Source: Thermoplasmatales archaeon
GTDB lineage: Archaea > Thermoplasmatota > Thermoplasmata > Thermoplasmatales > Thermoplasmataceae
Direction: 5' to 3'
Length of the DNA: 64,000 bases
Assembly (NCBI GenBank): GCA_016806715.1
Contig: CP060531.1
Span: 372,001 to 436,000, forward strand
Below the pieces are notes generated by a model, which saw only the letters and a program-made list of their open reading frames with translations, did not search any database and was not told the DNA's origin. Below, piece after piece: positions 50,425 through 57,518 of this stretch. Each line of letters opens with the position of its first letter. Position 1 is the first letter of the stretch. Made by a program: the position numbers and the translations under genes.

Positions 50425-51195
50425 TTACCTTCTCCACTTTGGATTGCTTGGCCTGTTAGGTTTCCTTCCGGAACCCAATACAAGGATCACCATGAAAATA
50501 AATACTCCCGCCGCAACATAGTAGATCCAGTCATAATTTGGAGGTGTCCCGTTGTAAAATGTTACTGAAGCTTTCTGGGTTTCACCGTTTACCTTGATCA
50601 ACGGGTTGTTCACGGAAATTGAAAGCGTGTATGAGCCAGTACCGAGCACTGACTCTAGTATCTCCAGGGAAACGACCTGCGAGGAATCCGGCGCCAGGCT
50701 GACTACCTTTGTACCATACAGGTTGCCGTTCAGATCGAACGACACGGTTATATTATTGATGGCGAAAGGCTGGCTGTTTGTTATGGTAGCTGACAGGGTA
50801 ATCGGGTTATAAACGTTGATAGCGAATGTGTGGGAATAATTAACATATTGGTTACCATACAGCGCGCTTGTGATAACCGCTATATAAATTGTCTGTGGCG
50901 AAGCGGGAGCTGTAACTGAGAATGAGGCGGAGGGGTTGCTTCCCCCATAATTCTCATAAGTGCTGGTAGGCGAAAATCCAGTCAGGTTTTCGCCGGAAAA
51001 GAAAGCCTCTGTCGTGTAATTGCTGAAACCAACGGAATTATTCACATAGACGGTGAAACTCTGTCCGGTGTAGACATTTCCTGGAATTGTGACAGAGACA
51101 TTATCGACTATGGGTATCGGGGATGCTGCAGATACCATGGCAAGGGCAGGTAATGCCATGAATGCAACTATCAGGACGGCAAATAGCTTGTTCAT
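50425..51195 (-). CDS. Secreted membrane-anchored beta protein, candidate AglB partner
   Basis: Not a known family. A signal peptide (about 1-24, LFAVLIVAFMALPALAMVSA) leads a region of about 200 residues rich in Ser, Thr, Asn and Val that looks like two Ig-like beta domains, with sequons such as NNS, NYT and NLT. A single membrane helix (about 223-243) and a short basic tail NPKWRR follow, so the bulk lies outside the cell. The ATG overlaps the aglB stop by four bases. The second domain (ITLSATITNSQPFAINNITV) resembles the end of the AglB extension, which has the same helix plus basic tail. It is a candidate accessory subunit of the oligosaccharyltransferase. Confidence 0.75.
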   Translation of the reverse strand: MNKLFAVLIVAFMALPALAMVSAASPIPIVDNVSVTIPGNVYTGQSFTVYVNNSVGFSNYTTEAFFSGENLTGFSPTSTYENYGGSNPSASFSVTAPASPQTIYIAVITSALYGNQYVNYSHTFAINVYNPITLSATITNSQPFAINNITVSFDLNGNLYGTKVVSLAPDSSQVVSLEILESVLGTGSYTLSISVNNPLIKVNGETQKASVTFYNGTPPNYDWIYYVAAGVFIFMVILVLGSGRKPNRPSNPKWRR

Positions 51196-54100
51196 CTCCT
51201 GAACCTCCTACCCCTCATCGAGGCTATAACCAGTCCTGCCACAACAGTCACGGCAATTATGATTAATCCGGTGAAAAGTGTCGCAAGTGCATCACCGGTG
51301 TAGTTGGGTATGATCCCATTACCAGACGGGGACGGAACAATGCTTGTATACGGATATTCCACTGTTAACAATACTGGTTCTGTTACTGTGCTTCCGTTGA
51401 TGGTGGCATTAAAGTCGGCATAAACTGTTCCACCGGGGGAGTAAGCAGAGCCTGTGGGTGAGAGAATGACATCAACAGTAACAGACTGGGAATATGGAAC
51501 GTTTATTGGTCCTGCAGCCTTCCCGTTGTAAACAAGTGTAGCTGTCCATCCATAAAGGTTTACGTTTGTGGAACTGTTAATCTTTCCAGTCACCGTGATC
51601 GGTGCATTTCCCGTATTGACGAGTTTGATCTGGTACACAAGATTATTTCCCTGTGGAGTTCCAAATATGGATACCACATGTGTTGAATATGAAAGTCTCG
51701 GAACCACATCAACGTTCACTATTCCGGATGAAGTCGATGAAGAATAGCTCATGTTGATGGGCACGGCCTCTATTCCGGCCTGAGGATTTTTCATGGCATA
51801 TACAGTGGCATTCACAGACTTGGTCTGTCCGGGTGCAAGCCCGATATGCGTCTCGTTGAACAATATAACCCAGGATGGGCTGCCGGAACTCAGCGTGACG
51901 TCATTGTAAACATTCTGCCTGTTAGTGACGTTGAAACGCACAAGGGTACTGTTTGTAAGGTTCAGTCCAGTCTGTATTTGCGGATAATTCTTTGCCTGGG
52001 TTATTACAACATTTCCTGTGACCTGCTGACTCAGTGATAGTGTAACCGATTGTGTGGAATTTATTTCAATGGTGTCATTTTCGCTATATGTGACGGTCAG
52101 TACTGTGTTGTTAAAAGCCGTCATGGTCTGTGTAACGCTTGCATAAAACGAATAGTTTCCCAGTGGAAGTAGAAGTGAAGTCTGCGACGTGTTGAACATT
52201 ATGTTGTAGGGGTATTCTGTGATCACAACATTCGTCTTTTGTGGCACAGATCCGACTGTCACTATGACCTTTGTCAGGTACGTATTCACGAGGCTGAAAT
52301 TATCATAGTAAGTGCCACTGAATGCAGGAATGGTGACTCCATTGAAATACCCTGTTCCGGTTGCATTGTTGAGAGCATATATCTCCCAAGTACCGGAAGG
52401 CAGGGACACTGTATAGAAACCATCTGAATTTGTTGTTACTTCAGCAATGTACTTCCCGGAAGTGGACAGTATCTGAACTGCCGTATTTTCTAACGGCGAT
52501 CCCTTAATGGTAACCTGTCCGGTAAGGACGGTATTTACAGGATTCGACTTTACGTTTATTGTGAAAGAACCAGTCGAGGTCGTGGAAATTGTGCCACTGC
52601 CTGAAACAACATACGAACCCGTTGAATTCACTACTGTATTGTAATACTGCACGCTATAGCTTCCTGTTGTTGGAATATACACCTTGTCTGTTGTCAGGTT
52701 GGCTGTGGTTCCGTTGATTGTCAGTGTATAGTGTCCCCCTCCAATGCCAAGGGAATTTTTCAGCAGAATCACCCGGGCGGATACGTTGGAAGGAGTTACC
52801 ACGCGGTTTGCATTCAGGGAGTAAAGATTCCAGGATGCCACAGGACTGCCTGTTACATTCGAATAGGTATATACGAGATAATTGCCAAACGGAAGTGGTC
52901 CGCTGGCATTTACTGCATATCCTGTAGAATTGAAAACTGTATAGTTGGTTTCATTTACCTTGAGCGTTGCATATGGGGTCGCTGAAAGCAGGATTTTCTG
53001 GTTTGCAGAATTTGGAATGACCACAGCGGGTTCAGCCAGCTTAAGTGTAGATGTGCCGTTGCTCGCAGAGGCTAGATATACTCCTGGAACTACACTTGCA
53101 GATATTCCATTTTCGTTTCCGTGAAGGTAGTACGTATTTGTTCCAGTTAACGTCAGGTTCACGATGCCGTCAAGCTTCTGGTTATTGTTGAAGAGCGTGA
53201 AATTGGCTTTGACCGTTACTGGGTTCATTGTAACACTCTGGCTGCTGCCCGTTATACTGGCAGTCACTGAGCTGTAAAGAGGTGCCATTGAAGTAGAACT
53301 TAAGTCCAGCTTACTCTGGTTCGTATAATAAAGTGTAGCTGTTCCTGAACCTATAGTGCCAAAATACACCGGGTTTCCAGATGAATAGAGAACAGAAATT
53401 CCCGAGTTTATTGCACTGCCCGAAGAATCATGAAGAGATACAGTCTGCTGGTTTGCAAATGTAAGCATAGGTGATACGCTGCGGTTGGAAATCAGATAGA
53501 TACTCTGGAACCCAGTCTGGAAATTGCCCAGGTATGTTACTGCTGACATTACGCCATAGAAACCCTCAGGCAGCATTATGCTATAAGGACCCGGAGTTGA
53601 ATACGAGTATTTGAGGAACGTGGAATTACTCATTATCTCATAGTATCCACTGTAAGCGGAAACTGCTGATAATGATGCTGATACAGTGAGAGAGTAGGAT
53701 AAACTCATTGTGGCAGTCACTGATACATTTGACTCCACATCAATAGTTTTAACCACTGCATTGCTTCCGCTGGACGCATAAAGTGTATAGATTCCATAAG
53801 GTACGGTGATGGAAAACTGCCCGCCGGTGTTTATGGTGGTTTTGTAAGCGCTTGAGATCTGCCCGTCCGGATACAGGAATATCGTGTTACCTGCCCTGGA
53901 ATTGTAGATAGTTCCAGAGACAGTTGCGCTCATTGACGCTGAGAGTGATAACGTGGAGTTCTGACCCCAATTTGAGAATGTCACGGTGGTGACGTTTGTC
54001 TGTGAGCTACCTTTAGTTGCGTATACAGAATAAGTTCCGGGCTGTACCCATAGATTAGCGTGTCCCGCACTGTTTGTTACATTGGAATATACTGTGGAGC

Positions 54101-57100
54101 CGTCAACCGCCTTGACAGTATAACCAGGCGAAAGGCCGAATGACGAGGAAGTATTGACGAAAAGACTGTCAAAGTAAACGATAGCATCATATACCAAGCT
54201 ACCGCCAATAGTTATGTTAGCCTGGAGTATGTCAGGATAATACGTACCATTGACAAGGAGTGATTCATGATAATTGTAGGGCTGGATGTTATTCAGCACA
54301 TATGCTCCATTCACTATGGGGATGGATATATTTGTGTTATACGTGGAATTGGTAAGGAACACAGTGCCAGTTTCTATCTTCTTTGTTGAAAACTGTCCTG
54401 GAAGGGAAGCATTCGCGTTCTTGATATTCTGGTATTCAATGAAAGCGGTTCCGGATATCTCGGAAGTCTTCGCCTGATAATTATCCTGGATGTAATAGTT
54501 CGGCATTCCTGTTGTTGAATTTATTGCCAGTGTTTGTCTCTCGGCCTGCTGTGTTGATACATATACAGGCTGTTCCTTCAGGATGTTCTTTCCATAAAGA
54601 TAAAGTGGATTCAAAGCCCCGGTACTGAATACTACGGTATCGTTTCCGGGTACAGCTGTCAAGTTATAGTAACCATTAGCATTGGTCTGTACAACGCTAT
54701 GGGGTATCCCGTACTGGTCATACAGGGTTACATTTACGCCACCGATCGGGAGTCCATTGGAATTTGTAACCCGTCCATTTATTATTGCGCCTGGGTAATA
54801 AGAAACAATGGGGTCGCTGCTTCCGAGCATCTGTGACGTTGAGGGGAAGATTACAGCAGTTCCAATCCCTTCCTTAAGGTAAGTATAAGCCTGTTGTAAT
54901 GGTATATCCTGCCATGCATTGGGGTGAGCTGCATAATTAGTGTATGGATTCCATGGTATGAGTTCATAAACGATCTCAAAGTTACTCATATTCCAGGCAG
55001 GCATAATTGTCAGGTTAGTGGTTCCGCTGACCAGTCCGGGGATGCCATTAGATACTCCCACAGCGCTGGCAGGGAAACCTATCTGCAGGCGATAAATTGT
55101 TGTATTGTAGAATGCAGGGGTATACTGAAGGTACTCATTTGTAACTGTTGCTGTCGTTGAAACGTTTTGAAGCGGGTATGTACCATTTGTGGTGTCAACA
55201 ATGACATTGTAGTAGTTCGTTGGAACAACTCCGCCGCCTGCGGTTGCATATGAGGGCGTATCTGTGAGGTACGAAGGTGCATAGAATGTTCCCGTATTGT
55301 TTACTGATGATGGAAACAGCGCGTGGTCAGCTTGGATGTACTGTATTGAATACCCCGTTACCTGCTCAAGAGCAGAGTACGCATTTACTAACGTACTCAT
55401 CGAGTATTTTGATGCTAACTGTCCCTTGATCAGGGCAAAATATGCATTTGTTGGCCCGATTGAGTTTATGTACTTCCCGTATATGGACGGGTTTTTCAGG
55501 ATCAGCGAATCGTATGCCTGTGGATTTGCGTAAATCTTGGCAAGGAACGATGCCTCTGCCGGACCAAAGTAAAAAGTCAGTACTTGGCTAACGTTCGGGG
55601 TAAACCCACCTGTGGATTTATCATATTCCACCTCTATTGTTCTCGCTATGAATAGAGCAACAATCTGGCTTTGATTCTGTGCCAAAAGTATCTGCCCGGC
55701 CACCTGGTAACCTTGCTGGAAATCATCAGCTACTGTAGGGTGAAGCCCTTGTTGAAGTTCCTGGAAGCCGTAATCCCACCATGAAACGTAAGCGGGCTTG
55801 TCATTTATCGGCTTATTCGCATTCTGTGTGGCCAGCCACGCGAAGGACTGTGCCAGTGGCTGAGATTTATTGTCTATTAGGCTGCCAGTTGCACCGACGT
55901 AGTACAAACTGCTTGCGGTAAAATTTGGAGGTTGCAGAATTCCGGGTATGGTATTGTATATCTCCTGGTTATATTTTGCTGCGTTGTTTACGGGAATTGA
56001 TGAGGATATTACACCCAGCCCTGAAGGGATAATGAGTAATGTGACTATTATAAAGACAAATACGACGTGTACCCAGCTGATGTTACCCTTTATGGCTTTT
56101 TTGATGCTTGCTGACGGAGCACCGCTTCTTCTCTTCAGATCGTATAGCTTGACGACATGAGCGAAATAAAGCAGGAGGCCTGCTCCAAGAACTGCATAGG
56201 CAGGTGCCGCTGTGATATTAAACCGTGCTGCCTCGAAGCTCATATAAATTGATACCAGTGAGAAGACTAAGATGAAGAACATCGAATCCTTCTTTTCTTT
56301 AAGATACATGTATATAGCATAAGCGATGCCACCCATTCCCAGTACAAATTCAAAGACGCCAAAGCCTGAAATGTACTGCCCTAGTGGCAATGAAGCTGCT
56401 TCTGCTATGGTCTGGTAAACTCTTGTCTTGATGAAATACCCGTCACCGCTTATCAGGGTATTGAAACTGTGTGTATCGAAAACTGCAAGGGCGGCGAGTA
56501 GTCCAGCGCCAAGCACGGCTATTACAGGTACAGATATGACCCACGGCTTGCTCCGAATGGCCATAAATACGAAACCCATTATTATAACAAGAATACTCAG
56601 GAGAAAGACGGGAGTTAACCATATCGAATAGTTTCCGATACCGATATAATAATACGCACCAAGCAGGAAACCAAGGAAAACCGTTATTGATGTTGAGTAT
56701 ACAAGATAATCGCTGGGTCTTTTAAGGAAGAGGTTGATAAAATACTGAACTATGACATACAGAAGGAGAATGACTACGGCGTACGCATAGCCCTGCCATG
56801 AAAGCATGAGCGCTCCCAGCGAAGCGCCAGCGAAAAGAGCGTATATTGTGGGAAGCCTGTTGTTTCTGTAATAATCACGTATTGACGAGAAAATCCGCGT
56901 CGGTGGGTATAATTTATCAATGATTTTGCCTTTATCGATAGTTACAATTGTTCTCTCAAAGAAATAGATTGCAAATAGCACAAAGATAAGTTCTGGTGTA
57001 TGAATTCTTCCATCCGAGAGGTAGCCAGCACTTATATTGCTTGGCATTAGCATATACAGCAAAGCTGCAACCATCCCTCCTTTCTTGCCAAATACTTCCT

Positions 57101-57518
57101 TCCCGATAAGGTAAACTGGGATTATGAGAAGTGCACCAAAAAATGCATCAAGTTCCTCGAAGGTCAGCAACGCTGCGCTCGTGATGTTCATGAACGGCGA
57201 CAGAACCACTGCTATGAATACGACCAGTATATGGAAAAACGGAGTTCTCGGGTTTACCGAGCCAAGAGGATAGTTCAAGGTTGGATCGAAGCTCAGCCAG
57301 TGACCTGTCTGTATCACGTGCAGTATGTTGATCCAGTTATAGTATGGATCACTTCCCCCAGATGTTGTGAAGAAACCATTCTGAAAAGTAACCGACCATG
57401 CGAAGTAATTTGCCAGGAAGAGGTAGAAACCAACCAGAACCGTGAGAACCACGGCCTCCGGATATTTTCTGATAAATCCCTCCTTCCCAGAAGAGCTGTC
57501 CCTGTAAGATAATTCCAT
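51192..57518 (-). CDS. aglB: Giant AglB/STT3 oligosaccharyltransferase with beta-repeat extension
   Basis: Membrane enzyme that moves a glycan from a lipid carrier to Asn of surface proteins. Residues 1 to about 500 form the multi-span core, with acidic site SGGSDPYYNW (D57) and a second loop GYLSDGRIHTPE near 165-176. The catalytic-domain signature WWDYG is at 580-584. The globular domain normally ends the protein, but here, from about residue 912, roughly 1150 more residues follow: repeated carboxypeptidase-regulatory-like beta domains (GRVTNSNGLPIGGVNVTLYD; later GQVTIKGSPLENTAVQI) rich in Asn, Ser, Thr and Tyr. Near 2077-2099 is a final membrane helix, ending RGRRFRR. The single 2108-codon frame has no break, so the fusion is real in this sequence. 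Confidence 0.92.
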   Translation of the reverse strand: MELSYRDSSSGKEGFIRKYPEAVVLTVLVGFYLFLANYFAWSVTFQNGFFTTSGGSDPYYNWINILHVIQTGHWLSFDPTLNYPLGSVNPRTPFFHILVVFIAVVLSPFMNITSAALLTFEELDAFFGALLIIPVYLIGKEVFGKKGGMVAALLYMLMPSNISAGYLSDGRIHTPELIFVLFAIYFFERTIVTIDKGKIIDKLYPPTRIFSSIRDYYRNNRLPTIYALFAGASLGALMLSWQGYAYAVVILLLYVIVQYFINLFLKRPSDYLVYSTSITVFLGFLLGAYYYIGIGNYSIWLTPVFLLSILVIIMGFVFMAIRSKPWVISVPVIAVLGAGLLAALAVFDTHSFNTLISGDGYFIKTRVYQTIAEAASLPLGQYISGFGVFEFVLGMGGIAYAIYMYLKEKKDSMFFILVFSLVSIYMSFEAARFNITAAPAYAVLGAGLLLYFAHVVKLYDLKRRSGAPSASIKKAIKGNISWVHVVFVFIIVTLLIIPSGLGVISSSIPVNNAAKYNQEIYNTIPGILQPPNFTASSLYYVGATGSLIDNKSQPLAQSFAWLATQNANKPINDKPAYVSWWDYGFQELQQGLHPTVADDFQQGYQVAGQILLAQNQSQIVALFIARTIEVEYDKSTGGFTPNVSQVLTFYFGPAEASFLAKIYANPQAYDSLILKNPSIYGKYINSIGPTNAYFALIKGQLASKYSMSTLVNAYSALEQVTGYSIQYIQADHALFPSSVNNTGTFYAPSYLTDTPSYATAGGGVVPTNYYNVIVDTTNGTYPLQNVSTTATVTNEYLQYTPAFYNTTIYRLQIGFPASAVGVSNGIPGLVSGTTNLTIMPAWNMSNFEIVYELIPWNPYTNYAAHPNAWQDIPLQQAYTYLKEGIGTAVIFPSTSQMLGSSDPIVSYYPGAIINGRVTNSNGLPIGGVNVTLYDQYGIPHSVVQTNANGYYNLTAVPGNDTVVFSTGALNPLYLYGKNILKEQPVYVSTQQAERQTLAINSTTGMPNYYIQDNYQAKTSEISGTAFIEYQNIKNANASLPGQFSTKKIETGTVFLTNSTYNTNISIPIVNGAYVLNNIQPYNYHESLLVNGTYYPDILQANITIGGSLVYDAIVYFDSLFVNTSSSFGLSPGYTVKAVDGSTVYSNVTNSAGHANLWVQPGTYSVYATKGSSQTNVTTVTFSNWGQNSTLSLSASMSATVSGTIYNSRAGNTIFLYPDGQISSAYKTTINTGGQFSITVPYGIYTLYASSGSNAVVKTIDVESNVSVTATMSLSYSLTVSASLSAVSAYSGYYEIMSNSTFLKYSYSTPGPYSIMLPEGFYGVMSAVTYLGNFQTGFQSIYLISNRSVSPMLTFANQQTVSLHDSSGSAINSGISVLYSSGNPVYFGTIGSGTATLYYTNQSKLDLSSTSMAPLYSSVTASITGSSQSVTMNPVTVKANFTLFNNNQKLDGIVNLTLTGTNTYYLHGNENGISASVVPGVYLASASNGTSTLKLAEPAVVIPNSANQKILLSATPYATLKVNETNYTVFNSTGYAVNASGPLPFGNYLVYTYSNVTGSPVASWNLYSLNANRVVTPSNVSARVILLKNSLGIGGGHYTLTINGTTANLTTDKVYIPTTGSYSVQYYNTVVNSTGSYVVSGSGTISTTSTGSFTINVKSNPVNTVLTGQVTIKGSPLENTAVQILSTSGKYIAEVTTNSDGFYTVSLPSGTWEIYALNNATGTGYFNGVTIPAFSGTYYDNFSLVNTYLTKVIVTVGSVPQKTNVVITEYPYNIMFNTSQTSLLLPLGNYSFYASVTQTMTAFNNTVLTVTYSENDTIEINSTQSVTLSLSQQVTGNVVITQAKNYPQIQTGLNLTNSTLVRFNVTNRQNVYNDVTLSSGSPSWVILFNETHIGLAPGQTKSVNATVYAMKNPQAGIEAVPINMSYSSSTSSGIVNVDVVPRLSYSTHVVSIFGTPQGNNLVYQIKLVNTGNAPITVTGKINSSTNVNLYGWTATLVYNGKAAGPINVPYSQSVTVDVILSPTGSAYSPGGTVYADFNATINGSTVTEPVLLTVEYPYTSIVPSPSGNGIIPNYTGDALATLFTGLIIIAVTVVAGLVIASMRGRRFRR

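Follow-up and report, generated by a model that had tools for sequence, protein, structure and literature searches.

Eukaryotic oligosaccharyltransferase (OST; Ost1/ribophorin I, OST48) and TRAP contain single-pass subunits whose beta ectodomains lie beside the catalytic subunit STT3. Those archaeal OSTs that have been studied consist of one protein each, with a length of up to ~1,050 residues, and characterised AglBs have been reported at 591-868 aa (PMC3703281) and at 754-1,054 aa (PMC5131992 Table 3). Here, we describe an AglB-like protein of 2,108 aa encoded in a 64,000-nt stretch of DNA (hereafter, the window) from a Thermoplasmatales archaeon whose genome forms one contig of 1,959,588 bases and holds this ORF as its only STT3-family match. 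Its homologues point to a whole archaeal class that builds a large extracellular arm into its OST, with a partner gene coupled to it. The initial annotation of the window had read an unbroken frame of 2,108 codons encoding a normal core, then beta domains and a second membrane anchor, and had set its length against that of characterised AglBs. The frame indeed runs without an internal stop (Table 1), the architecture was recovered by Pfam, catalytic motifs, AlphaFold and Foldseek matches to A. fulgidus AglB, and the length contrast holds for characterised proteins of 591-1,054 aa (PMC3703281, PMC5131992).

Anatomy of the long AglB

The anatomy of the long AglB, i.e., a core, an arm and a second anchor, is near certain. 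The core consists of a multi-spanning STT3 region (residues ~19-510) followed by a globular domain. Pfam placed STT3 (PF02516) at residues 55-494 of the 2,108-aa protein with 30.3-35.4 bits, above the curated cut-off of 24.5, together with four CarboxypepD_reg stretches (the best at 913-966) and DUF1416 at 1661-1719. The archaeosortase-A-associated subfamily TIGR04154 matched residues 24-812 with 171 bits, below its cut-off of 450. D57, E373 and W580-G584 are invariant in the order, and by its STT3 domain, the Asp of the first DxD, the Glu of TIXE and WWDYG, the protein can be assigned to the AglB/STT3 family. The second DxD is replaced by (S/T)(D/G)GRxHTPE in Thermoplasmatales, with D169 present in 36/54 under a loop alignment that is uncertain. 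Family f13 and two further loci (L080, L091) likewise deviate at this second motif.

Table 1 Features of the aglB locus, in positions of the window.
Feature	Position	Strand	Evidence
aglB-like gene, whole frame, 2,108 aa	51192..57518	-	ATG start, without internal stop
AglB core, residues 1-905	54804..57518	-	Pfam STT3, TIGR04154 below cut-off, fold match to A. fulgidus AglB
D57 of first DxD (GGSDPYY)	57348..57350	-	53/53 aligned homologues having a letter there
Second-DxD stretch, residues 168-176	56991-57017	-	(S/T)(D/G)GRxHTPE where many other phylum families have DHD
TIAE (TIXE motif), residues 370-373	56400..56411	-	E373 in 53/53 having a letter there
WWDYG, residues 580-584	55767..55781	-	54/54 aligned homologues
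Extension, residues 906-2065	51324..54803	-	Pfam, AlphaFold pLDDT 84.5, collinear across class
First extension domain, residues 911-966	54621..54788	-	Conservation nearly equals core
Sequon N959 in first extension domain	54642-54644	-	42/42 homologues
Middle of extension, residues ~1200-1950	51669..53921	-	Absent from Acidiplasma aeolicum and two MAGs related to it
C-terminal membrane helix, residues 2073-2104, then basic end	51207..51302	-	Hydrophobicity; helix in AlphaFold model
Partner gene, 256 aa, adjoins aglB downstream	50425..51195	-	Overlaps aglB by 4 nt (ATGA)

The extension, of ~1,150 residues, comprises ~10 TTR/prealbumin-like and two Ig/CARDB-like beta domains, as counted from secondary structure. 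In keeping with the beta repeats and terminal helix read earlier, AlphaFold returned residues 909-2108 (42 sequences) as an all-beta chain with one C-terminal helix at a mean pLDDT of 84.5; the pTM of 0.46 means that the domains can be trusted, but not their mutual arrangement. The terminal helix is the sole strongly hydrophobic segment after the AglB core, and sequence and model together would anchor both ends of the arm in the membrane. In Foldseek, a model of residues 470-1330 matched A. fulgidus AglB (5gmy, 7e9s, 3waj), its arm part matching pilin and adhesin stalk domains, and the whole extension matched only generic Ig/MG-domain beta-sandwich strings with low TM-scores. A single-sequence search of the extension against the PDB yielded noise only. 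The DNA of the region contains one 27-bp tandem-repeat match and no notable array, so the extension is not a recent repeat expansion.

Distribution of the long form and its partner gene

We surveyed AglB homologues across the phylum of the window; most of the surveyed genomes are MAGs, and related species are non-independent points. Almost all complete frames in the order span 2,030-2,134 aa, and a long AglB is present in Ferroplasma acidarmanus Fer1 (L087, 2,061 aa) and in Thermoplasma sp. The long form is also the rule in the other orders of class Thermoplasmata, at ~2,070-2,440 aa (~1,830-2,030 aa in family f10). Other families of the phylum carry arms of differing length, in proteins of up to ~3,300 aa, as well as short AglBs of ~1,120-1,430 aa that lack the terminal helix. 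Judged from these frames, the long form is class-wide in Thermoplasmata, has related forms in the phylum and is not peculiar to this organism, and the length of the window protein by itself is ordinary for its group. The initial annotation would have been refuted by a length that is both universal in the group and already described; the first half holds within the order, the second does not: the openly licensed papers searched mention aglB only as present and hold no description of a long AglB in Thermoplasmata. Within that literature, the class-wide long AglB is apparently an undescribed variant of the archaeal OST. The interest of the finding is raised because a conserved partner, which the initial annotation had not linked to the gene, and motif-less homologues exist.

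The search for the same domain order, also suggested there, found the arm order-wide in Thermoplasmatales and collinear across the class. Profile alignment of the order arm with the class arm covered 1,135 collinear columns (E 7e-105), versus 528 broken columns (E 3e-14) for an unrelated TTR-repeat family aligned to the arm as a control. For most members of the order, identity with the window protein is ~45-55% across the membrane core and 49-59% across the globular part, against 25-34% over the arm, the first ~100 arm residues being conserved nearly as well as the core. Against a near relative, identity reaches 90% in the core and 76% in the extension with silent sites saturated (hence no dN/dS ratio), which argues for purifying selection on both parts. 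The core tree permits a single origin of the anchored form in one clade (AU p 0.886).

Acidiplasma aeolicum and two related MAGs (L069, L070, L073) encode proteins of 1,425-1,442 aa, from which ~750 mid-arm residues are gone and in which both ends are kept. The aglB frame is split in E-plasma (L066, two ORFs), Thermogymnomonas acidicola (L093, four ORFs) and UBA582 (L084), through draft error or decay. Three loci (L139, L140, L141) encode AglBs of ~3,150 residues that are extended at the N terminus, with WWDYG at ~950; there, the product of the gene after aglB has ~410 aa, closes with a GYGxLxA stretch and may be a subtilisin-like peptidase. Another locus (L119, genome G071) holds a second, contig-edge ORF with WWDYGH besides its 2,380-aa AglB, and in the tree the core of L119 falls outside the other members of the class.

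The partner protein combines a signal peptide with beta domains that are weakly CARDB-like, a C-terminal membrane helix and a PKWRR tail, the tail motif across the family being PKW(K/R)(K/R). It is single copy in the window genome. Across the survey, 63 of 81 loci, nearly all Thermoplasmatales loci included, have the partner gene immediately downstream of aglB, usually overlapping it or standing a few bases apart, and homology within the family extends over the class (hhalign E 1.2e-38). Translationally coupled to aglB, the gene follows it across Thermoplasmatales and in the greater part of the class, and does not stand beside the short AglBs. Genomes with a short AglB or with the ~3,150-residue type (L139-L141) gave no full-length partner match, their matches being CARDB-domain fragments of large proteins only, and long, anchored AglBs without the partner occur in phylum relatives (L136, L138-L142). 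Compared with solved structures, the partner profile found no relative and no OST or TRAP subunit; its best match was a weak one to the cell-surface protein 2l0d (E 0.0095).

Homologues without catalytic motifs and the sequon pattern

Family f10 of the class encodes the long protein in 45/45 genomes of at least 90% completeness. In the aligned f10 sequences, DxD, TIXE and WWDYG are lost as a set (e.g., GGSSAQY, WIDYS), the first Asp alone being left in a few, and the loss extends to further basal or partial f10 sequences. A similar loss is found in f29, represented by the single genome G179. The motif-less loci (L189-L218 and L220-L228 in f10, L127 in f29) keep the arm, the C-terminal helix and the partner, which adjoins the f10 protein in 27/27 cases with flanking sequence. 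The sole exception among the f10 sequences read is the basal genome G155 (L219), whose catalytic motifs are intact; the motif loss therefore seems to have arisen inside the family. Because STT3 surveys found at most one match per f10 genome, no intact second OST was seen in f10. We infer from the lost residues that the f10 proteins are catalytically inactive. Conservation per block in f10 is 0.40-0.51 for the extension, close to the 0.49-0.65 of the core. Since the family keeps arm, anchor and partner without the catalytic residues, arm and partner would do something besides glycan transfer, and the role of the arm appears separable from catalysis. For annotation, this is a warning that the AglB-like proteins of f10 are probably unable to glycosylate.

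The arm of the window protein contains 45 sequons versus 27 expected from composition (z = 4.1), so the richness in N-x-S/T noted in the initial annotation is real. Three other surface proteins of the same genome equal or exceed it (z 4.0-11.1, versus -0.3 for neighbouring cytosolic proteins), and sequon richness was dropped as special to the extension, because surface proteins of this genome show it in general. One 1,172-aa surface protein (G000:C1:187003-190518, L164), which has relatives in the family, carries six CarboxypepD_reg stretches and 78 sequons versus 27 expected.

Sequon columns conserved in at least 40% of homologues number 23, versus 4 for the reversed motif. In the arm, sequons exceed expectation 2.08-fold in the order, 2.39-fold in the other intact families of class and phylum and 1.32-fold in f10 (p 4e-11 and 1.9e-6, with related species counted as independent), and reversed motifs stay at ~1.1 in all three groups; the intact locus L116 shows no arm excess. 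This pattern is consistent with glycosylation of the arm in those groups whose core is active. The arm itself is probably N-glycosylated, and the sequon statistics agree with a putative glycan transfer to N-x-S/T by the long AglB.

Exported proteins, sampled over ~400 kb per genome, have a sequon excess of 2.05 in the window genome and 1.15-1.17 in two f10 genomes. The intact f21 control G176 gave 1.18 in the same sampling, i.e., no excess, and its own extension is enriched 2.45-fold. As this intact genome likewise lacks an excess, exported-protein sequons were dropped as proof that f10 has lost N-glycosylation. PF00953 (GlcNAc-1-P transferase) was uninformative as a pathway marker, since it is absent from the window genome too.

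A candidate scaffold and its comparison with known systems

Our preferred reading, to which we give roughly an even chance, is that the long AglB provides a double-anchored extracellular scaffold of the OST, joined by a partner subunit and with a role separable from catalysis. The extension would be an ancient, fixed extracytoplasmic arm that begins just after the catalytic globular domain, passes through ~12 beta domains and returns to the membrane via its own C-terminal helix. Arm and coupled single-pass partner would most likely form a complex over the enzyme, probably at the protein exit site, which may hold or order surface proteins as they emerge and are glycosylated by the core; the arm itself would also be a substrate of glycosylation, as the sequon statistics support. 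Counting for the scaffold are the near-constant length in the order, the class-wide collinear arm, its conserved near end, the co-conserved partner and family f10; counting against it are the mid-arm deletion in Acidiplasma, the partner-less long AglBs in the phylum and the generic Foldseek matches. The motif-less f10 homologues separate the scaffold's job from glycan transfer, making a sharp test possible.

Twelve domains of ~4 nm each (our own estimate), anchored at both ends, would give an arch of ~20 nm. Tomograms of two Thermoplasmatales show an unordered exterior protein layer of ~20 nm whose composition is unassigned (PMC12448462). The numerical match between arch and layer is suggestive only, and the long AglB is a candidate component of the surface layer in wall-less acidophiles.

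Alternatively, the extension might be a passive, self-glycosylated surface arm fused to AglB, which adds to the ~20 nm exterior layer or keeps that layer off the active site. We regard this as possible, though rather unlikely. Such an arm would share its sequon excess and its C-terminal anchor with basic tail with other surface proteins of the genome, would suit the layer of the two Thermoplasmatales (PMC12448462), and would allow for a middle part that is dispensable in Acidiplasma. However, such an arm would need neither a domain order fixed class-wide nor a conserved near end, nor a partner conserved along with it, and the gene is single copy. The self-glycosylated stalk put forward in the initial annotation survives in part: its sequons are enriched and positionally conserved, but its persistence in the motif-less homologues and the class-wide set with the partner make a scaffold or a complex more likely than a passive stalk, short of proof.

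An S-layer-like lattice part fused to the enzyme, raised in the same annotation, would agree with an anchored beta-domain chain bearing many sequons. This reading is weakened and now very improbable: published microscopy shows Thermoplasmatales mostly without an S-layer (PMC12448462, PMC5155288), yet the extension is found order-wide, and its occurrence in one copy joined to an enzyme does not resemble a lattice protein.

We give hardly any credence to the extension being a homologue of eukaryotic NOMO (BOS complex, multipass translocon) fused to an OST. The two have a common layout, with ~12 beta domains followed by one membrane helix, and among solved structures the extension profile matches NOMO2 best (E 3e-8 and 5.7e-12). 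Yet a control profile, built on a TTR-repeat surface protein that is unrelated but comes from the same genomes, ranks NOMO2 first as well (E 9.4e-10), a single-sequence search does not find NOMO, and it lies outside the 50 best fold matches. Specific sequence homology is thus refuted, the similarity being clan-level (TTR/CarboxypepD_reg) and common to the control family. Finally, the chance that read-through, mis-assembly or an unusual start has joined two genes is negligible, for although the frame is split in some drafts (L066, L093, L084), dozens of independent genomes, complete ones included, have an unbroken frame of equal length, which refutes the artefact and excludes the frameshift near codon ~912 that the initial annotation had allowed for.

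With archaeal AglB (A. fulgidus AglB-L and others), the window protein has in common the multi-spanning STT3 region, the first DxD Asp, TIXE, WWDYG and the globular domain after WWDYG; the characterised ones are too short for its arm and second anchor, and Thermoplasmatales differ by (D/G)GRxHTPE in place of the second DxD. The CarboxypepD_reg/TTR-repeat surface proteins of Thermoplasmatales, such as L164, resemble the arm in domain type and sequon excess, but they lack an enzyme core and their profile similarity to the extension is partial. NOMO is alike in its chain of beta domains, single helix and short tail. Eukaryotic OST and TRAP are alike, by analogy only, in setting anchored beta ectodomains beside the catalytic subunit, and differ in that arm and catalytic core share one chain in the window protein. 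More tentatively, arm and partner could constitute a conserved, extracytoplasmic surface-protein biogenesis machine of class Thermoplasmata that is independent of glycan transfer, with the f10 OST a pseudoenzyme kept solely as a scaffold; such a machine would correspond in kind, by analogy, to the luminal apparatus of beta domains that flanks the eukaryotic translocon and OST.
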